From an uncultured Opitutia bacterium (GTDB taxonomy: Bacteria; Verrucomicrobiota; Verrucomicrobiia; Opitutales; UBA953): DNA of 64,000 nt. The DNA is taken from the NCBI GenBank assembly GCA_903855995.1, contig CAIOAN010000007.1, positions 62,001 to 126,000 of the forward strand, written 5' to 3'. The notes under the pieces are model-generated. The model was not told where the DNA came from, did not search any database, and worked only from the letters and a program-made list of their open reading frames with translations. Positions 10,290 through 44,814 of the stretch are shown piece by piece (position 1 is the first letter of the stretch; each line of letters starts with the position of its first letter). The position numbers and the translations under genes were made by a program.

Positions 10290-11309
10290 ATGACCCTCCC
10301 CAGTCTCGCCCGTATGGTCGCCGTCGCGTCCGTCTTTGTCTCCTCGCTCTTCGCCGAAGAAGCCCCGAAGAAAATCGGCATCATCGGCCTCGATACCTCT
10401 CACGTGGTGGCGTTCACGACGGTCTTCAACAAGGGCCCGAAGAACCCCGCCGACGCCGCGAAGTTCGCCGGCTTCCGCGTGACGGCCGCCTTCGCCCAAG
10501 GCAGCAAGGATATCCCGGAGAGCACGGTGCACGTGCCCGACTACACGGCGAAACTCGAGGCGATGGGCGTCAAGGTCTACGACTCGATCGAGCAACTCTG
10601 CGCTCAGGTCGATTTCGTGATGCTCGAATCCAACGACGGCCGCGTCCACCTAGAGCAGGTCCTGCCGGTGTTCAAGGCGGGCAAGACGGTCTTCATCGAC
10701 AAGCCAATCGGTGGCTCGCTGGCCGATGTCATCCGAATCCAGGAAGCCGCGAAGAAGTCCGGCGCGACCTATTTCTGTTCTTCTTCGCTCCGCTTTGCGG
10801 CGAGCACCCAGGCGGTCGCCCAAGGTTCCGTGGGTAAGGTGAAGACGGCCTACACGACCAGCCCGGCCAGCCTCGAGCCGCACCACCCCGACCTCTACTG
10901 GTACGGCGTCCACGGCTGCGAAAGCCTTTACACGGTGATGGGCACGGGCTGCGTCTCGGTAAAGCGCGACAAGTCCGCCGAGGGCATGATCCAGGTCACG
11001 GGGAACTGGGGCGACGGCCGCGTGGGCATCTACCGCGAAGCCGACCGCAAAGCCAAGGGCGGACCCTACGGCGGCAAAGCCGTCGGTGATAAAGGCGAGG
11101 CCGCGATTGGCGCTTTCGATGGCTATGAAGTCCTGCTCGAGTCCGTCGTGAAGATGTTTCGCACGGGCAAGGCGCAGGTCTCTGCCGAAGAGACGCTCGA
11201 ACTTTATACCTTCATGGAAGCCGCCGATGAGAGCAAACGCCAGGGCGGCGCCGAAGTGAAGCTCGCCGACGTCCTCGCCAAGGCCCGCGCCGAAGTCGCC
11301 GGCAAATAA
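10290..11309 (+). CDS. Exported Gfo/Idh/MocA-family oxidoreductase
   Basis: The 339-residue protein begins with a Sec-like signal peptide (MTLPSLARMVAVASVFVSSL, cleavage near FAEE). The Rossmann start is modified (KIGIIGLDTSHVVAF instead of GxGxxG), a form seen in exported members from Planctomycetes/Verrucomicrobia. The catalytic-loop equivalent of EKP is DKPIGGSLADVIRIQ, and the C-terminal half carries HHPDLYWYGVHGCESLYTVM. Family enzymes oxidise or reduce sugars with tightly bound NAD(P). Export by a Sec rather than Tat signal would need the cofactor to be acquired outside or to be absent, which is odd. The substrate is unknown. Confidence 0.8.
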   Translation: MTLPSLARMVAVASVFVSSLFAEEAPKKIGIIGLDTSHVVAFTTVFNKGPKNPADAAKFAGFRVTAAFAQGSKDIPESTVHVPDYTAKLEAMGVKVYDSIEQLCAQVDFVMLESNDGRVHLEQVLPVFKAGKTVFIDKPIGGSLADVIRIQEAAKKSGATYFCSSSLRFAASTQAVAQGSVGKVKTAYTTSPASLEPHHPDLYWYGVHGCESLYTVMGTGCVSVKRDKSAEGMIQVTGNWGDGRVGIYREADRKAKGGPYGGKAVGDKGEAAIGAFDGYEVLLESVVKMFRTGKAQVSAEETLELYTFMEAADESKRQGGAEVKLADVLAKARAEVAGK

Positions 11310-27298: not shown

Positions 27299-27303
27299 CC
27301 CTA

Positions 27304-27329
27304 GGTAGGGACAGTACCACGTGCTGTCC
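27304..27329. repeat. Single GTAG-tagged palindrome
   Basis: Tag GGTAGGG (27304-27310) overlaps GACAGTACCACGTGCTGTC, then CTAGTC. This is the same family as 11390, 20178, 41839 and 44784, here alone in a convergent gap of 87 bp. Confidence 0.85.
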
Positions 27330-27385
27330 TAGTCTGTCTTTGGGATACCCGTTTATCCCTGCAAGGGCTGCGTAGCTCGCCGGCT

Positions 27386-28288: not shown

Positions 28289-28387
28289 GGCCGGAATCTA
28301 ACCCCGGCTTACCACGCATAAAGCATAATAAGGTTACAATACGTCCTAGAAATAGTAGTCCTGTTGCTGATTCGACTCCGCTTTCCG

Positions 28388-29152
28388 ATGAAGCCTCCTC
28401 CCCATCTCCGCTCCCTGAAGACCGGTATGGCCGAGAAGCTGGGGTATTACGTCTACCTGTATGTCGATCCGCGGGATGGGAAGGTGTTCTACATCGGTAA
28501 AGGAAAGGATGAGCGTTGCTTGGACCATCTGTTCGAGGATGACGACCACCCGAAGGTGAAGCGCATCCGAGAGATTTTCGCCGCGGGGCTTGAGCCGCGC
28601 ATCGAGATGCTGGCGCATGGGTTAAGGTCGGAGCAGGAGGCCTACAACATCGAGGCCGCGGCCATCGGCCTGCTGGGCCTGGAGAACCTGACTAATCGCG
28701 TCGTGGGCAAGGACAGCCTTCGCTTCGGCCGCAAGCGATTGTCCGAACTCGAGGGTTACTACGCCGCCAAGCCGGTGAAGATCACGGACCCAGTCATCCT
28801 GATTCGTGTGAACCAGCTTTATCGTCACAGCATGCCGGCCGAGGAGCTGTATGAAATCACCCGTGGGGTCTGGAGGCTGGTTTTTGAAAGAGCCAGTGCC
28901 ATGAAGTATGCCTTCGCCGTCTATGAGGGGGTTGTCCGCGAGGTTTATGAAGTCGAGAAGTGGCGTCCCGCCCTGATTAACGGTTACACAACCCGGACCG
29001 ACCTCTTGCCCGAAGACGCCAAAGGCCGCATTGAATTCGTCGGCAAGGTCGCGCCCGAAGCCATACGCCAGAAGTATCTCCTCGGAGACGTTACCGCCTA
29101 TACCAAGGTCAGCCTACAGGCTCCCTGCCTTTATATCAACGAACCTGCCTAG
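28388..29152 (+). CDS. LEM-3-like GIY-YIG nuclease
   Basis: Two ATG starts are plausible (28388, or 28427 just before the domain). The GIY-YIG domain is at the N-terminus: YYVYLYVDPRDGKVFYIGKG, then DHLFEDDDHPKVKRI and the Glu of SEQEAYNIEAAAI as the metal ligand. A second domain of about 100 residues follows (YEITRGVWRLVFERASAMKY, AFAVYEGVVREVYEVEKW), also found after GIY-YIG in bacterial homologues. Family members cut DNA; the target is unknown. It is convergent with the GmrSD-like gene, one base apart, and forms the left end of a defence island. Confidence 0.82.
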   Translation: MKPPPHLRSLKTGMAEKLGYYVYLYVDPRDGKVFYIGKGKDERCLDHLFEDDDHPKVKRIREIFAAGLEPRIEMLAHGLRSEQEAYNIEAAAIGLLGLENLTNRVVGKDSLRFGRKRLSELEGYYAAKPVKITDPVILIRVNQLYRHSMPAEELYEITRGVWRLVFERASAMKYAFAVYEGVVREVYEVEKWRPALINGYTTRTDLLPEDAKGRIEFVGKVAPEAIRQKYLLGDVTAYTKVSLQAPCLYINEPA

Positions 29153-29153
29153 C

Positions 29154-30869
29154 TCAGGAGGCAGCCAGGAACTCGTTGAGGCGAGCGGCAATCAGCTTGC
29201 GACGCGCGCTCAGGAACTCCTTGTAGTTCTCGGTCTTCAGGAGCCTTGGGTCAGTCGGGATGCACTGGGCATCGAAAGCGGACTGACCTGCCGACTCGAT
29301 GAGGGCAGGGAAGTAGTCGGCGGGCGACTTATCGCTGATGTTGCGATTAGTCTTACCTCCGATGAACGAGAGATTCGCGATGTCGTCCGCCTCGCGAGAA
29401 GAATACGACTTCTTGAGCAAGGCCTTGGGGAAGATGTGATGGAACTGGAGCTTGTGCTGCACGCCGGAATGGTCGAAGGCGATGGACAGGTTGGACTTCC
29501 AGTCTTTGGCGCCAGCGGCCCTGAAGGCCAGGAACATGGTTTTGAACAGCGCGCTACGCTGGTTTCGTCCTTCGAGTTCCTCGGGCGAAACCTGCAGAAG
29601 GCCGACCTGTTGCCTTAGTTTCTCGACGAGATCCGCGACGCCGCCGCCATCGCGGATGATCGCCAGGTCCTGGTCGAGTAATGTCTCGCTCGATCCTCGG
29701 GAGTAGCGGCCCTTGGCATTGGCAAGCAGGCACCAGCGACGCAGCAGCTCGGCCTCTTCCTTGGAGAACTGGAAGTCGCGGCGATGCCCGTAATAAGCCA
29801 GCGCCACCATTAGGGACGAGGAGGACATCAGCGCAGGGCTATCGATCTTCGCGTTATTCCGAACGAAGTTCGAAGCGAACTCCATCCCCTTGACTGAATC
29901 ACTCCAGCCGGACTGTAGCTTGTCGACGCCGATGGTGTTGACGGTGATGAATCGTGACTGATTGGTGATAAAAGCGACCAGGCTTCGCAGGAAGACGCCC
30001 AGCTCGAGGTCCAGGCCTTCGTCGGCACATTGGCTTTGGAACGACTGGAAGGTCTTGAGCGCACCGCGCCACTTGGCGGTAATCTGCGCCAGCGCCAGGT
30101 CAGAGCTACGCAGTTTGGCGCCCAGAGAATTCACTCGGACAAAGATTTCCGTGACCTCGTCATAGGAGAGCGTCCGCTCGAGCACGTCCATGCGGTAGAC
30201 ATACTTCTTGATGCCACGAAGCTGCGCCAGACGTTGGCTATATTTATGGAAACGCGGGTCGCTAACCTCCTTGATGCCGGCCCGGGTGAGAAAGATGGCG
30301 TCGGTCTGAGACTTGAAAACATCGGTTACACTCACCCACTGCGGTAGTTGCTCGAGTTTCCGGGTGGCCACCACGAAGGTCTTCTTGTCGAAGCGCTGCT
30401 GGAGTTCGTCATCGGAAGAATCCGCTTCGTCCGAGATGGCTTCGCGCTCGTTGTCTTCTTCGTCGTCATCCTGCTCGTCGTCCTCGTCGATATCAGTCGC
30501 GCCGGTAAGCTGATCTGGGTGGTCTAGGTTGAAGAGGATATCGATGGGCTTCTTCCTGCCACGCACTGAAACGGGCTCCCCGCGGATGACAGAGGAGAGG
30601 GAGGTTAGGCGTTGCTGGCCGTCAAGCAGCAGGCGGGTGCTCTTGTAGGGGTTTGCCTCCTGTTTCACGGAGAAGTCCTGCAGCGGGACATCCTCATCGG
30701 TCTCCCAAAGCAGGATGGCGCCGGACGGGTATCCGCGGTAAAGGGAGTCCAACAGGTCGCGCACCCTGGTGGAGCGCCAGACGTAGCGACGCTGCATCTC
30801 CGGCAGCCGCAGCTCGCCCCTTTCGATCATGCTGACCAGTTCTTCTACGGATGCTTCGGATTTGGCCAT
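29154..30869 (-). CDS. GmrSD-like protein, DUF262 with C-terminal HNH (DUF1524-like)
   Basis: The 571-residue protein has the DUF262 motifs RLPEMQRRYVWRSTRVRDLL, YRGYPSGAILLWE and LLLDGQQRLTSL (a ParB-like NTP-binding fold) at residues about 20-95. It continues to a C-terminal HNH region, LQFHHIFPKALLKKS, with NLSFIGGKTNRNISDKSPAD near residue 510. A very acidic insert (about 125-155, DIDEDDEQDDDEEDNE) separates the first motifs from the rest. GmrSD proteins are type IV restriction enzymes against modified DNA. It is divergent from hsdM and tail-to-tail with the GIY-YIG gene. Confidence 0.85.
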   Translation of the reverse strand: MAKSEASVEELVSMIERGELRLPEMQRRYVWRSTRVRDLLDSLYRGYPSGAILLWETDEDVPLQDFSVKQEANPYKSTRLLLDGQQRLTSLSSVIRGEPVSVRGRKKPIDILFNLDHPDQLTGATDIDEDDEQDDDEEDNEREAISDEADSSDDELQQRFDKKTFVVATRKLEQLPQWVSVTDVFKSQTDAIFLTRAGIKEVSDPRFHKYSQRLAQLRGIKKYVYRMDVLERTLSYDEVTEIFVRVNSLGAKLRSSDLALAQITAKWRGALKTFQSFQSQCADEGLDLELGVFLRSLVAFITNQSRFITVNTIGVDKLQSGWSDSVKGMEFASNFVRNNAKIDSPALMSSSSLMVALAYYGHRRDFQFSKEEAELLRRWCLLANAKGRYSRGSSETLLDQDLAIIRDGGGVADLVEKLRQQVGLLQVSPEELEGRNQRSALFKTMFLAFRAAGAKDWKSNLSIAFDHSGVQHKLQFHHIFPKALLKKSYSSREADDIANLSFIGGKTNRNISDKSPADYFPALIESAGQSAFDAQCIPTDPRLLKTENYKEFLSARRKLIAARLNEFLAAS

Positions 30870-31078: not shown

Positions 31079-32622
31079 ATGACGAAGGGACCCAATTTCA
31101 TGCCTCCTTCGCAAGACAACCAGATACATATGGATCAAATCAAGCGAGCCGCTTGGGCCGCTTGCGACACCTTCCGAGGCGCCGTCGATGCGGGCCAGTA
31201 TAAGGACTACATCTTGGTGATGTTGTTCTTGAAATACATTTCGGATACCAATCGGGCGCACAGGAAGCAGCTGGAGGTGAAATATGCCGGCGATACTGTT
31301 CGGCTCGCTCGCGAGCTTCAGCGTGAACGCTTCCAGATTCCAGCCGGCGCCTCGTTCTACGACCTCTATGCGCAGCGTGGGGCCGACAACGTCGGTGAGC
31401 TGATCAACGCCGCCCTTGAATCGATCGAAGCCGCAAACCGCACGAAGCTGGGCGGCGTTTTCAGGAACATCGATTTCAATAGCGAGTCGAACCTTGGCCG
31501 TAAAGCCGACAGAAACCGTCGCTTAAAGGCCGTATTGGAGGATTTCGGCAAGCCTGAGCTCGATCTCGATCCTTCCCGCGTAAGCGAGGACATCATCGGC
31601 GAGTGCTACATTTACCTGATTTCTCAGTTCGCCTCCGACGCGGGAAAGAAGGCCGGCGAATTCTACACGCCATCGAGCATGTCAGTGCTGCTTGCCAAAC
31701 TCGCTGCGCCGAAGCCGGGCGATAAGATCTTCGACCCCTCCTGCGGTTCCGGCTCATTGCTCCTGAAGGCAGCCGCCGAGGTCGGTAGTCCGAACTTCGC
31801 GCTCTTTGGGCAGGAAGTAAACGGTGCCACGTGGGCCTTGGCTCGGATGAACATGTTCCTCCACGCCCAGGACTCGTCGGTCATCAAGTGGTGTGACACG
31901 CTGAATAGTCCTGAGCTGACCGAGAATGGCAGGCTCATGCAGTTCGACCGTGTCGTTGCCAACCCGCCGTTTTCTTTGGATAAATGGGGACATGAGGGGG
32001 CGGCCGCAGATCCTTTTGCGCGCTATTCGCGAGGCATCCCTCCGAAGTCTGCAGCGGACTATGCTTTCGTCACGCACGTCGTCGAATCTTTGAAGCCAGG
32101 CAAGGGAGTCGGCGCGATGATCGTGCCGCACGGGGTACTCTTCCGCGGAGCTGCCGAAGGGAAGATCCGCAAGGCGCTCCTCGAAGAAAACCTCATCGAT
32201 GCGGTGATCGGACTGCCTGAGGGCATGTTCAGTTCCACGGGGATCCCTGTCGCGATTCTCGTCATTGATCGCAGCCGTGAGCAGGGGGGGCTAACGCCAA
32301 CCGTAAGGATGTGCTGTTCATCGATGCGTCACGTGAATTCCTCGAAGGAAAGGCCCAGAACGTCCTTACGTCCGCACATATCGACAAGATCGTCGCCGTC
32401 TTCCGTGAGCGCCGAGAGGTCGAGAAGTATTCGCACTCCGCGATCCTCGACGAGATCAAGGAGAACGACTTCAACCTAAATATCCCCCGTTACGTCGACA
32501 CTTTCGAAGCCGAAGCCGTGGTCGATATCGCAAAGGTCCAACAGGAGATTGTCGCCCTCGAGAAGAAACAGGCCGAACTCCGCGTGAAGATGAACCAGTA
32601 TCTGAAGGAGCTGGGACTGTGA
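31079..32622 (+). CDS. hsdM: Type I restriction-modification DNA methyltransferase, frameshifted at a G7 tract
   Basis: Type I HsdM methylates adenine in the site chosen by HsdS. The N-terminal helical domain (WAACDTFRGAVDAGQYKDYI), SAM motif (FDPSCGSGSLLLKAA) and catalytic NPPF (Asn295) are intact. After residue 401 the frame runs into aberrant Ser/Arg-rich sequence ending at 32479. The true C-terminus (DVLFIDASREFLEGKAQNVL ... YLKELGL) is in the frame one base back, ending at 32622. Seven G residues (32284-32290) mark the switch; eight would restore one protein of about 515 residues. ATG 31100 is an alternative start. The stop overlaps hsdS by one base. Confidence 0.88.
32284..32290 (+). 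repeat. G7 homopolymer at the hsdM frame switch
   Basis: The tract reads as G-GGG-GGG relative to the hsdM frame, so a -1 slip places the ribosome on GCT-AAC-GCC and on into the correct C-terminus. One added G has the same effect. See the finding on hsdM. Confidence 0.9.
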
Positions 32623-33794
32623 TGATGAATGGTCCGCAAAAAGTATTGTTGTCCAAACTAGGCACCCTCAAGAAGGGCGGTGCCATTCTTCGCGAGAAAT
32701 TGCGCCCAGAAGGGGCAGCGGTTATTCTCTATGGCGATATCTACACTAAGTACGCCGAAATTGTGACTAGGTTAGTTTCCCGGGTAGATCCCTCTGCTGT
32801 AGTCGATGGTGTGCGACTTAACTCTGGAGATATCGTTTTCGCCGGTTCGGGTGAAACTGCCGAAGAAATTGGTAAGTGCATCGCATATGTTGGGAGAGAA
32901 GAGGCGTATGCTGGCGGCGACGTCGTTATTCTAAGCAATCATGGCCAGGACGCTCGTTACCTCGGCTATGCTCTAAATGCGGAAGATGCCATTCGGCAAA
33001 AGATGCGACTCGGGCAGGGCAGTTCAGTCATGCATCTTTATAAGGATGATGTGGGTAGTATCCAAATCCCTCTCCCGCCGCTAGCCGAACAGCGCAAGAT
33101 CGCAGAAATCATCCGGACCTGGGACGAGGCCATCGAGACCGCCGAAGCCGAACTCAAGGCCAAGCAGGAGCGGAAGCGATGGATGATGAAAAGAGTCTTC
33201 GAGGGGGCGTTTCAGACCATTAGCCAAGGCTGGAACAAGGTGTTGTTAGGAGACTGCTTCTTTGAGCGGTCGGAAGCTGGAAACACAGGACTTCCTCTCC
33301 TGTCTATCACTAGTGGCAATGGAGTCGTAGATAGAGAAGAAATTGGGCGAAGGGATACGTCGGCGGCCGATAAAGGCAAGTACCTGCGAATTTGCCCAGG
33401 CGACATCGGCTATAATACCATGAGAATGTGGCAAGGCGTATGCGGCCTATCCAAACACGAGGGGATTGTTAGCCCTGCCTACACCATCTTAAGGCCGCGC
33501 TCCGAAACTAACCCGGCCTTTATGTACTATCTTTTCAAGTGTCCTCCGATGGTTTCTAGGTTCCATCGTAGATCTCAAGGGCTTGTTAAGGACACCCTTA
33601 ACTTGAAGTTTCCTGCTTTCGCCAAAATTAGCGTAAATATCCCCAGCCAAAAAGAGCAGACAAAGATTGTGCAAATCCTGGAGGCCGCAGACGAAGAATT
33701 GGAATGGCTTAAAAGGCACCTCGAATCCCTGCGCACTCAAAAGCGCGGGCTGATGCAAAAGCTGGTGACCGGAGAGGTCCGGGTCGCGGTATAA
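32622..33794 (+). CDS. hsdS: Type I restriction-modification specificity subunit
   Basis: The ATG at 32622 overlaps the hsdM stop (TGATG); a GTG three bases earlier is an alternative. The 390-residue protein has two target-recognition domains, each closed by a conserved helix: IQIPLPPLAEQRKIAEIIRT (about 148-200) and VNIPSQKEQTKIVQILEAAD (about 340-385). These helices form the spacer that sets the distance between half-sites. The domains have lower GC and less regular codon use than neighbouring genes, in line with the frequent exchange of these domains. The recognition sequence cannot be predicted. Confidence 0.93.
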   Translation: MMNGPQKVLLSKLGTLKKGGAILREKLRPEGAAVILYGDIYTKYAEIVTRLVSRVDPSAVVDGVRLNSGDIVFAGSGETAEEIGKCIAYVGREEAYAGGDVVILSNHGQDARYLGYALNAEDAIRQKMRLGQGSSVMHLYKDDVGSIQIPLPPLAEQRKIAEIIRTWDEAIETAEAELKAKQERKRWMMKRVFEGAFQTISQGWNKVLLGDCFFERSEAGNTGLPLLSITSGNGVVDREEIGRRDTSAADKGKYLRICPGDIGYNTMRMWQGVCGLSKHEGIVSPAYTILRPRSETNPAFMYYLFKCPPMVSRFHRRSQGLVKDTLNLKFPAFAKISVNIPSQKEQTKIVQILEAADEELEWLKRHLESLRTQKRGLMQKLVTGEVRVAV

Positions 33795-33807: not shown

Positions 33808-36800
33808 ATGAGCAACAAACGCGAACTATCGGCTACCACCGAGAAACATGTATCACAGGTCCCGGCGCTAGCGCTGCTGTCAGCGCTGGGTTGGGAGATC
33901 GTCCCGCAGGCCGAGTCAGACGTGTTACGAGGCTCCAACACAAAGGTGCTTTTTCCGGAAGTCGCCGTCGATCAGCTGCTCCGCATCAACCGTTTTACGG
34001 CAAAGGGTCGTGAGCACTCTTTCGACAGATCTGATGCCGAAGAGGCGCTGCGTCAGCTCAATCCCACGTCGGACAGGAGCCTGAGGCTGGTCGACATCAA
34101 TCGCCATACGCACGAGACGCTGATTCTCGGCGCAACCATCGTGAAGACGGTGGAAGGCGACAAGAAGAGCCATGGGATGCGCTACGTGGATTGGGATAAC
34201 CCGGAAAACAACCGGTTCCAGGCGACAGCCGAATTCAGCGTGATGCGTAACGACGGAAAGAATACCAATCGCTGTGATATCGTGCTTTTGGTGAACGGTA
34301 TCCCGTTCGGTGTGATCGAGAACAAGGCTCCTGGTGTGGAGATGAGCAAGGGTGCCTATCAGCTGATCGCGTATCAGGCTCCAGATGCTATCCCGAGCCT
34401 CTTTCACACAGCTCAGCTATTGATCGCAGCCAATAAGAATGACGCGAGCTATACCTCGGTAGGCGGAAGCCGTAAGTCTTATGCGAAATGGCGCGAACAT
34501 CATGACGAAGCGGCCCTGTCTAAGCTCGTGAATCAGGCGCTGCCCTTGGAGGTCGAAAACGCGTTGTTCGCTCAGCCTCTCGCCGATGCTCGGCGCTTCT
34601 TCAAAGAACAGCGCGCCGCTGGCGAGATTTCGGTGACTGAACAAGACCGGCTTATCTATGGGCTTTGCCAGAAGGGAAGATTTCTGGAGTTCGCACGGAT
34701 TTACTCCCTGTTCGATGATGGCGACGAAGGCCGGAGAAAGATCGCCCGTCATCAGCAGTATTTTGGCGTAAAGGCCGTCGTGGAGCGTATCTCGGAACTG
34801 GGCCCGGATGGCGCCCGTAGGGGTGGTGTTGTGTGGCACACCCAGGGGTCGGGCAAATCGCTGACCATGGTCATGCTAGGCGTTGCCCTGTCCTATGAGA
34901 AGAAGATCACTAATCCGCGTATCGTCATCGTGACGGACAGGACGGATCTGGATGACCAGATTTCTTCCACTTTCAAGAATTGCCGGAAAGGCGTGAAGAA
35001 GGCCGATTCAGGTGCGCAGCTCCTCAAGCTGATTCAAAGCAAGACAACGGACGTCATCACTTCGGTGATCAATAAGTTCGAATCAGCGATGGAACATGCG
35101 TCCGATTTCAGGGATGATGATCCGAACATCATCGTCCTAGTGGACGAAGGGCACCGTACTCAGCACGGAAGCCTTGCCGCGCAGATGCGGCGTCTGATGC
35201 CTAGGGCCTGCTATATTGGCTTCACCGGCACTCCTATCCTGCGCAAGGACAAGGAGACGGCCGACCGTTTCGGCGGTATCATCCATAAGTATACCATCGA
35301 AGATGCGGTGAAGGACGGCGCCATCGTGCCGCTGATCTACGAGGGCCGACTGGTCGCGATGCATTCCAAGAAAGACGACCTGGATGCGATGTTCGAGCTC
35401 ATCTCTGCCGGATTGACCGACTTACAGAAGATCGACCTGAAGAAGAAGTTCACGAAGATGTCCGTCGTGGGCCGCACTGAGCCAGCCCTGTATGCGCGTG
35501 CATTTGACATCTCGGAGCACTTTTCGAAGAACTGGAAGGGAACGGGCTATAAAGGACAGGTGGTAGCCCCGACCAAGGCGGCCGCCATCCGCATGAAGGA
35601 GCTGTTCGAACAGTTTGGCCAGATCACTTCTGAAGTCATCATCTCGGGCCCTAATCAGCGCGAGGGCGATGAAGAGGTCGAAGGCGAAGGTAGCCCGGAA
35701 GATGAAGATAGCGTCAAGGTGTTCTGGAACCAGATGATGGCCAAGTACGGCGACGAGGAGAAATACAACCGACAAGTCATCAAAGCCTTCAAGGGCGAAG
35801 GAGGCCCTGACGTCATCATCGTCGTCTCCAAGCTGCTCACCGGATTCGACTGCCCTAGGAACGTCGCTATGTACATCTGCAAGCAGATGAAGGAAGAAAA
35901 CCTTCTCCAGGCTATCGCCCGAGTGAACCGTAACTGTGAAATCGCACGCCCTGGACGCGAAATCGATCATGACGACGACACCTCCGCCGATGTGAAGACT
36001 AACGGCTATATCTACGACTACGAAGGCCTTCTGTGTGAGCTCAACACGGCTATGCTGAACTATCGTAACCTTCAGGGTTACGACACTAAGGATATTCAAG
36101 GCGTGGTGACGCCGATCGTCGACGAGATCCGCAAGCTCCCGGCCCTATGCGCCGCGGTCCACGACATCTTCAAGGCAGTGAAGAACAAGCTGGATCACGA
36201 GCAGCTCGAGCAGGCGCTTCGCAACGATGATACGAGAAAAGAGTTTTCAGACCGCCTTGGCAGGTTTGCCAAGACCCTTGCTAAGGCTCTTGGCTCAACG
36301 CAGGCCTACGACATCTTCAAGGCCGAAGAGATCGAGAAGTTCAAGGGCGACTGGAAGCGCTTCTCTAATCTTCGTCGATCGGCGGCACTCCGCTATCAGG
36401 ATGCCGTTGATATGCGCGAGTTCGAGCCGAAGCTCCTCCAGCTCCTGAACAATAACATGGTGGCCGATCCTGCCAGGCAGATCATCAAGCCAGTGGACAT
36501 GAGCAACCCGGTGAAATTCCAGGAAGCCGTTGAAGAGGCTGGCGGCAGTCAGAGCGCTAAGAACGAGGGCAGAGGTCGTGCCATGAGGCGGTATCTAGAT
36601 GGTCATCTTAAGCACGAGGATCCCGCGCTATACCGCAAGTTCTCTGAGATGTTGGATGAGTCGCTCGCCAAATATGAGAGCGGACGTATCGATGCGCAGG
36701 AGCTGGCTAGACAGCTCGAGCAGCTGGCCAAGGACATTTTGGCAGGCAAACGCGAAAAGCCGCTGCCCGCCTCTATCGCCGGTAACGGCGACGCCGAGGC

Positions 36801-37092
36801 GTTCTATGGTATTTTGCTTCCTGAAATCCAGGAGATCTTGGGCGTCGGCGACAAGTCCGAGGAGTTCACGGCTACCGCGGCATTGGAGATTTTGGCTATC
36901 TTGAACCGATACAGGAAAGTTAACTTCTGGGCGGATGAAGACGCGCAGAAGCGCCTGGCGACCGCGCTGGATGAATACTTCTTCGAGACCCTGGCGCGAG
37001 ATCGCAACGTGAAGATCGACGTCCCACGCTTGGATCAGACTTACGAGTTGCTACTGAGCACCGCCCGCCGCCGATTCGGTAAAGATGGCTGA
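33808..37092 (+). CDS. hsdR: Type I restriction endonuclease subunit R
   Basis: The 1094-residue motor and nuclease subunit has an N-terminal PD-(D/E)xK nuclease (Asp157 and Glu171-x-Lys173 in DIVLLVNGIPFGVIENK), then a superfamily 2 translocase: Walker A HTQGSGKSLTM (Lys350), DEGH box (Asp446-His449), GFTGTPI, and the C-terminal helicase half with LLTGFDCPRNVAMYICKQMK and QAIARVNR. Full length and uninterrupted. It pumps DNA toward the bound enzyme and cuts unmodified DNA. It starts 13 bp after hsdS and overlaps the next gene by 8 bp. If hsdM is truly off, an active HsdR still needs the M/S complex, so restriction would also be off. Confidence 0.97.
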   Translation: MSNKRELSATTEKHVSQVPALALLSALGWEIVPQAESDVLRGSNTKVLFPEVAVDQLLRINRFTAKGREHSFDRSDAEEALRQLNPTSDRSLRLVDINRHTHETLILGATIVKTVEGDKKSHGMRYVDWDNPENNRFQATAEFSVMRNDGKNTNRCDIVLLVNGIPFGVIENKAPGVEMSKGAYQLIAYQAPDAIPSLFHTAQLLIAANKNDASYTSVGGSRKSYAKWREHHDEAALSKLVNQALPLEVENALFAQPLADARRFFKEQRAAGEISVTEQDRLIYGLCQKGRFLEFARIYSLFDDGDEGRRKIARHQQYFGVKAVVERISELGPDGARRGGVVWHTQGSGKSLTMVMLGVALSYEKKITNPRIVIVTDRTDLDDQISSTFKNCRKGVKKADSGAQLLKLIQSKTTDVITSVINKFESAMEHASDFRDDDPNIIVLVDEGHRTQHGSLAAQMRRLMPRACYIGFTGTPILRKDKETADRFGGIIHKYTIEDAVKDGAIVPLIYEGRLVAMHSKKDDLDAMFELISAGLTDLQKIDLKKKFTKMSVVGRTEPALYARAFDISEHFSKNWKGTGYKGQVVAPTKAAAIRMKELFEQFGQITSEVIISGPNQREGDEEVEGEGSPEDEDSVKVFWNQMMAKYGDEEKYNRQVIKAFKGEGGPDVIIVVSKLLTGFDCPRNVAMYICKQMKEENLLQAIARVNRNCEIARPGREIDHDDDTSADVKTNGYIYDYEGLLCELNTAMLNYRNLQGYDTKDIQGVVTPIVDEIRKLPALCAAVHDIFKAVKNKLDHEQLEQALRNDDTRKEFSDRLGRFAKTLAKALGSTQAYDIFKAEEIEKFKGDWKRFSNLRRSAALRYQDAVDMREFEPKLLQLLNNNMVADPARQIIKPVDMSNPVKFQEAVEEAGGSQSAKNEGRGRAMRRYLDGHLKHEDPALYRKFSEMLDESLAKYESGRIDAQELARQLEQLAKDILAGKREKPLPASIAGNGDAEAFYGILLPEIQEILGVGDKSEEFTATAALEILAILNRYRKVNFWADEDAQKRLATALDEYFFETLARDRNVKIDVPRLDQTYELLLSTARRRFGKDG

Positions 37093-37795
37093 AGCTCTGG
37101 TATTCACGCTCAAGGGTGAGTCCGTTCCGTTCACTATCAGGCGCTCGGATAGGAAGACTTATCGTGTCTCTGTGGACATCGATGGCTCTATCCGCCTGCT
37201 GGCCCCCCACCTTGCCTCTGATAAAAAGTGCGCAGCTTTTCTTCGGCAAAGCCGGCGCTGGATCGAGAGACAAAGGGCGGCGATGCTCAGACTGCCTAAG
37301 GCTCCCAAGCTGAAATATGTAGCCGGCGAATCCCACTTGTATCTAGGAAAGCCCAGGCGGCTTAAGACGCCATTAGCCTCCAAGGCATCGGTAAAGCTCG
37401 ATCGTTCACAGTTGATCGTATCTTCGCGCCAAGAGCCTGAGCCATCTGCCGTAAAGGCGGCGCTTGAAAAGTGGTATAGATTACAGGCTCTGGATGTATT
37501 TCAGGTGAGGCTCATGGCATGCCTGCAAAACAGTTGTTTCAACGAAGGAGACAGGCCTTCCGCCATCAGGATCAAGAAGCTCAAATCTAGCTGGGGGTCG
37601 ATGAGTCGCTCAGGCGTGCTCACGTTAAGCGCCGATCTCATTAAGGCTCCGATCGAGTGTATCGATTATGTGATCACACACGAGCTCTGCCATATCAGGA
37701 TTCCGAGCCATGGGCCCGATTTTTGGAAGGCACTCACACGGGCCATGCCTGATTGGAAGGCCCGCAGGAACACTCTCGAACAAATGCTAGGCTGA
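37085..37795 (+). CDS. YgjP-like (SprT/DUF45) zinc metallopeptidase
   Basis: The 236-residue protein ends with the zinc motif HELCH (His199-Glu200-His203) followed by IPSHGPDFWKALTRAMPDW, where the third His ligand lies. The N-terminal half (RRSDRKTYRVSVDIDGSIRL) and KKLKSSWGSMSRSGVLTLSA are typical of the DUF45/YgjP family. The gene overlaps hsdR by 8 bp, and this family is often found at the 3' end of type I operons. Its substrate is unknown; removal or turnover of the restriction complex is a guess. Confidence 0.9.
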   Translation: MAEALVFTLKGESVPFTIRRSDRKTYRVSVDIDGSIRLLAPHLASDKKCAAFLRQSRRWIERQRAAMLRLPKAPKLKYVAGESHLYLGKPRRLKTPLASKASVKLDRSQLIVSSRQEPEPSAVKAALEKWYRLQALDVFQVRLMACLQNSCFNEGDRPSAIRIKKLKSSWGSMSRSGVLTLSADLIKAPIECIDYVITHELCHIRIPSHGPDFWKALTRAMPDWKARRNTLEQMLG

Positions 37796-44459: not shown

Positions 44460-44814
44460 AGTATAGAGTATAGGGAGAGGCTAGGGGCACGGACAGGGTA
44501 GGCGCAATTTGTTGTGAGGGCGGGACGGCTGTCCTCAGCCGTCCGTTCGTCAGATGAGTTGCGGATGTCGATCGGCTCAACGGCGGGTTGGGGACAACCC
44601 GCCCTACCCGAGGCAGACGAGGGTGCAGAGCACTCCCATCAACCTACCCACCCTACACTTGCCGCTAGGTAGGGACGGCTGTCCTCAGCCGTCCGTTCGT
44701 CGAGAGGCCTGCGCACCACGTGAGAGATTCTATTCTCGATCGGCTCAACGGCGGGTTGGGGACAACCCGCCCTACCCGAGGCAGACTAGGACAGCACGTG
44801 GTGCTGTCCTAGTC
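44458..44814. repeat. Duplicated composite repeat block
   Basis: The 430-bp gap starts with GAGTATN units (44458-44472). It then holds two copies of a composite made of GACGGCTGTCCTCAGCCGTC (44524-44543; 44674-44693), a spacer with CGATCGGCTCAACGG, and GCGGGTTGGGGACAACCCGC followed by CCTACC (44583-44608; 44751-44776). A third, diverged composite lies at 59504-59586. The gap ends with a 31-bp perfect palindrome (44784-44814, core GACAGCACGTGGTGCTGTC). No gene. Confidence 0.87.

Follow-up and report, generated by a model that had tools for sequence, protein, structure and literature searches.

The hsdM gene of the type I restriction-modification locus in the window (the whole stretch of DNA analysed, 64 kb) loses its reading frame at a run of seven Gs (G7), and it is very probably a single ordinary type I methyltransferase gene that is one G short in the assembled sequence. 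The coincidence of the frame break with the G7 run is not due to chance. hsdS and hsdR downstream are intact. In 89 homologous loci, hsdM passes through the same site in a single frame, and a second one-base break was found at a seven-base run in an unrelated gene of this genome.

The hsdM frame break

The G7 run is read as GAG CAG GGG GGG CTA ACG, with E401, Q402, G403, and G404 as the residues at the break. The frame opened by the ATG at 31079 continues through the run to a stop codon at 32477-32479 and encodes 466 aa, the final ca. 62 of which are out of frame. The conserved C-terminal part of HsdM (RKDVLFIDASREF...NIPRYVDTFE) is held in the -1 frame and extends to the TGA at 32620-32622. 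Across the locus (31079-32622), the frame is lost at about residues 402-404 and followed by ca. 110 residues in the -1 frame. The initial annotation of this DNA had described hsdM as interrupted at this G7 run, and the reading frames, Pfam, TIGR00497, and tblastn all agree with it. Its description of a frame intact to residue 401 was right as to the loss of frame there and accurate to within 1-3 residues as to the position. Its further points, that the frame resumes one base back for about 110 conserved residues up to the overlap with hsdS and that eight Gs would give a full-length protein, also held, as one added G restores the whole hsdM frame.

The two frames share out the Pfam N6_Mtase profile and the NCBIfam hsdM model TIGR00497 between them (Table 1). 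Jointly they span the whole of the latter model, while either piece by itself scores under its cut-off. When the joined HsdM protein was used as a tblastn query, it was recovered as two 100% pieces in two frames with their junction at the G7 tract.

Table 1 Features of the hsd locus in the window.
Feature	Position	Strand	Matches and remarks
hsdM, upstream frame	31079..32479	+	HsdM_N and N6_Mtase (2-237 of 311); TIGR00497 (4-422 of 515)
G7 run, site of frame loss	32284..32290	+	Homologues: GGN-GGN, at most six Gs, single open frame
hsdM, downstream (-1) frame, conserved C-terminal ca. 110 residues	32281..32622	+	N6_Mtase (242-309 of 311); TIGR00497 (420-515 of 515); 3lkd_A 408-507
hsdS, 391 aa, intact	32619..33794	+	Methylase_S, two stretches; PADLOC Specificity_I, 7.9e-72
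hsdR, 1094 aa, intact	33808..37092	+	HSDR_N, SWI2_SNF2; PADLOC REase_I, 1.1e-162; TIGR00348
YgjP-like metallopeptidase gene	37085..37795	+	PF01863, 2.2e-52; 8-nt overlap with the hsdR end

The hsd operon and its neighbourhood

hsdM, hsdS, and hsdR carry the domains that define a type I restriction-modification system according to Pfam, with PADLOC and NCBIfam in agreement. As in the type I systems covered by TIGR00497 (EcoR124II M, 7bst; 7vru; 3lkd), the gene order is hsdM-hsdS-hsdR and the subunit families are all matched. The locus differs from them in that HsdM lies in two frames in the assembly, joined at the G7 run, where an assembly error is possible. The start of hsdS and the hsdM stop share 4 nt, and AAGGAG is found immediately 5' of hsdS. 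The YgjP-like gene probably belongs to the same operon as hsdR.

Beside hsdM, a divergent gene pair at 28364-30869 encodes a GIY-YIG protein similar to PADLOC PD-T4-3 (+ strand) and a GmrSD_N/HEC-05 protein (- strand). Together with hsdMSR, the pair has the look of a small defence island, one that varies among genomes of the genus. By flank matches, hsd orthologues occupy the same neighbourhood in two genomes (G074 and G030), and no hsd genes lie between those flanks in another (G068). The hsd locus lies in a variable defence region, and it would be no surprise if a system were lost there through chance mutation. A second type I-like system is present elsewhere in this genome (G000:C2:118250-124814; L002, L028) and also in the relative G050. 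Its HsdM relative is an 838-aa open frame with an HsdR relative downstream. Two short intergenic stretches of the window, at about 27303-27340 and at 44520-44810, occur in dozens of copies in same-genus genomes and are dispersed repeats typical of the genus. Two contigs of the assembly (G000:C4 and G000:C5; L151, L152) have exactly 2904 bases each, all N.

Comparison with homologues

We searched 79 genomes family-wide for hsdM orthologues and drew 80 further loci from the genome collection. The DNA at the break site was read in 89 homologous loci, including both same-genus orthologues (G030, L005/L095; G074, L006), which are 73-74% identical to the hsdM studied here and have open frames. A single frame passes through the site in all 89. 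The homologues carry GGN-GGN there (CAG/CCG GGC GGG GCG in the same-genus copies). The longest G run at the site was most commonly two and at most six, and none of the 89 had a run of more than six Gs. A conserved repeat of varying length among related alleles was not observed in these 89 homologues and the one assembly of the species. Judged from these sequences, the G run is private to this genome and new in the lineage. GGG accounts for a minor share (11%) of the glycine codons of this genome.

Identity of hsdM to its relatives was 76-77% after the break versus 72-73% before it, and the C-terminal part is free of stops. Since conservation does not drop after the break, the break is either very recent or not real. 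The intact and conserved hsdS, hsdR, and hsdM C-terminal part led us to reject an old decay of the restriction system, in line with the initial annotation, which had argued against old decay from the intact HsdS and HsdR. No exact copy of this hsdM allele was found in the viral contigs searched. DNA searches of 387 further genomes of the phylum yielded nothing close either, the best matches having 66-71% identity. In G030, the hsdR orthologue is itself in two frames near residues 130-142 (L141, about position 11165; G030:C8, minus strand) and is apparently one G short in GACTGGGATAA. This is possibly an assembly error, as the contig is named like those of a long-read assembly (tig).

G/C runs and frame breaks in the genome

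Classic phase-variable genomes accumulate poly-G or poly-C tracts. An order-3 Markov model predicts ca. 4.9 G/C runs of at least seven bases for the window, which contains four. Counts of 7-, 8-, and 9-base G/C runs over 900 kb of this genome were 25, 3, and 1. The corresponding expectations were 24.4, 3.0, and 1.2 with an order-5 model, and models of lower order predict more long runs. Thus, G/C runs in these 900 kb are at or below expectation and show no such enrichment.

Frame breaks were scanned with a codon model in ca. 910 kb of this genome, and for each homopolymer the best coding frames on either side of the run were compared. Two strong breaks at long homopolymers emerged from the scan, one in hsdM and one in a PF00144 serine hydrolase gene (G000:C2:7272; L125:7272-7278). 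In the hydrolase gene, a surplus C in a C7 run shifts the frame, and the two pieces correspond to profile positions 1-89 and 94-313. In G047 and G068 (89-90% identical), this gene is intact, encodes 419 aa, and has C6. The hydrolase was also the sole convincing frame break in the ca. 270 kb comparable with G068 (protein identity of at least 65%). In the 900 kb, frame breaks were found at 2 of 11 clearly coding seven-base G/C runs, a rate resting on small counts, at none of 59 six-base runs, and at one of 442 five-base runs, the last being a weak case. In G050, none of the 15 seven-base and none of the 85 six-base runs had a break. Long G/C runs within genes are mostly intact, among them C8 at 21239 of the window and C9 at L157:16073, and about 15 other coding runs of 7-9 bases stay in frame.

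Several apparent breaks were dismissed. The top one (L123:8519) was the clpX-hisA junction read antisense, and another (L211:10816) was the rplK-rplA junction. The other weak candidates, inspected by eye, were short pieces, stop codons, or gene junctions.

Interpretation of the missing G

That the single gene is one G short is best explained by a generic homopolymer-length indel, which would be neither a programmed nor a conserved device. In the proposed course, a synonymous change from GGC to GGG in the first glycine codon would have joined the Gs into one run, which would then have lost one G in the sequence as assembled. The two breaks at seven-base runs lie in unrelated genes, one being a base short and the other having a base extra, which suggests undirected change in homopolymer length. 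Known assembly homopolymer indels and fresh pseudogenes have the same appearance, namely a one-base change in a seven-base run with intact relatives and a second case in the genome, and nothing found distinguishes the hsdM case from them.

Two forms of such an indel were considered. A consensus error, with hsdM really intact, is close to an even proposition. Replication slippage could instead have produced a real, recent mutation, not subject to selection, in the strain or population sampled, a substantial possibility that we hold more tentatively. The initial annotation had listed a homopolymer sequencing error among its readings, and the independent one-base break at C7 in an unrelated gene strengthened an error or indel as the cause. 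More than 80% of the residual errors of long-read-only assemblies are in homopolymers, and an unpolished long-read assembly contains one error per 5 kb (PMC8442456). Against an error, frame breaks amount to about two in 900 kb, far under the unpolished long-read rate, the assembly is otherwise clean, and many other long runs stay in frame. The two seven-base-run breaks do not by themselves separate consensus error from real slippage.

If the base were truly missing, the product would be a 466-aa HsdM that lacks its last ca. 110 residues and ends in 62 wrong residues. Alignment to the solved HsdM chains (3lkd, 7bst, 7vru) indicates that this truncation would take away the last portion of the methyltransferase domain together with the helical C-terminal region, and the M2S methyltransferase would presumably be missing or inactive. 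hsdS, having its own AAGGAG, could still be made. Type I HsdR acts solely within the complete complex. Restriction would therefore be lost too, with HsdR idle rather than toxic, and such an OFF state is likely to be harmless and tolerable for the cell.

Other readings of the break

An evolved phasevarion, with reversible slippage between G7 and G8 turning HsdM, and thereby both methylation and restriction, on or off within a population, is unlikely. The geometry fits, as the G run lies in the reading frame, one added G gives the full gene, and hsdS and hsdR are intact. G7, or G8 if on, also reaches the phase-variation cut-off of at least seven G/C used in Campylobacter (PMC6321876). Repeat switching is known for hsdM in non-typeable Haemophilus influenzae and poly-G switching for hsdS in NgoAV (PMC7394358, PMC9577141), and repeats considered capable of switching occur in ca. 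2% of the hsdM genes of REBASE (PMC7394358). However, the G run is conserved in none of the 89 homologues, G/C runs of at least seven bases are not in excess in 900 kb, and the other coding runs of 7-9 bases are in frame. A tract of G7-G8 also falls short of the nine-base cut-off applied to Neisseria (PMC5953494) and is at the lower edge of switchable tracts. Of the ON/OFF phase variation put forward in the initial annotation, the tract geometry stood, whereas the tract proved to be lineage-private and short, in a genome with no excess of G/C runs.

The known switches differ from this locus. In the hsdM of non-typeable H. influenzae (cited in PMC7394358), a change in repeat length sets the downstream frame, as it would here, but switching has been demonstrated there, whereas the present run, a mononucleotide tract of 7 bases, is private to a single genome represented by one assembly. 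NgoAV of Neisseria gonorrhoeae (PMC9577141; PMC6789123) likewise has a poly-G run in a type I gene, where a one-base change alters the protein. That run is in hsdS instead of hsdM, it changes specificity rather than switching the system ON or OFF, and many strains are documented to differ in its length.

Full-length HsdM, perhaps together with a truncated form, would result if G GGG GGG caused programmed -1 ribosomal frameshifting or transcriptional slippage. To our knowledge, no role has been described for an HsdM truncated in this way. The run does form a slippery heptamer of the X XXY YYZ type whose phase is correct and from which the conserved frame continues with GCT AAC, exactly as the initial annotation had read it, and a downstream stem of -24.2 kcal/mol can be drawn. 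This stem is not exceptional, as the fold of the 90 nt downstream had z = -1.44 and 17 of 200 shuffles were equally or more stable. No Shine-Dalgarno-like stimulator lies immediately upstream of the heptamer, and neither the heptamer nor a split gene occurs in any of the 89 homologues. A frameshift that makes an essential enzyme subunit would be expected to be conserved, yet the relatives do without the heptamer, which disfavours frameshifting. On the homologue comparison and the fold we rejected this proposal of the initial annotation and regard it as very improbable. A functional split, in which the C-terminal ca. 100 residues would be translated from an in-frame GTG at 32311, the earliest start codon of the downstream frame, and would complement the truncated HsdM as a second polypeptide, is hardly credible. 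Such a fragment would start inside a conserved methyltransferase-domain strand, and the upstream frame has no stop near this GTG, making coupling unlikely. As no homologue among the 89 is split at this site, a two-chain HsdM was also rejected.

Implications

If the missing G is an error or a chance mutation, which is likelier, this hsdM calls for caution against annotating a restriction system as broken or phase-variable from one assembly. There is a slim chance that a G7/G8 switch of a whole type I system has newly arisen in an environmental member of the Verrucomicrobiota through one synonymous substitution. A real switch would add one more member to the known phase-variable hsdM genes. If the run truly varied, it would be a newborn contingency locus in the restriction system of a free-living bacterium and would offer a chance to watch phase variation begin from a single synonymous change.
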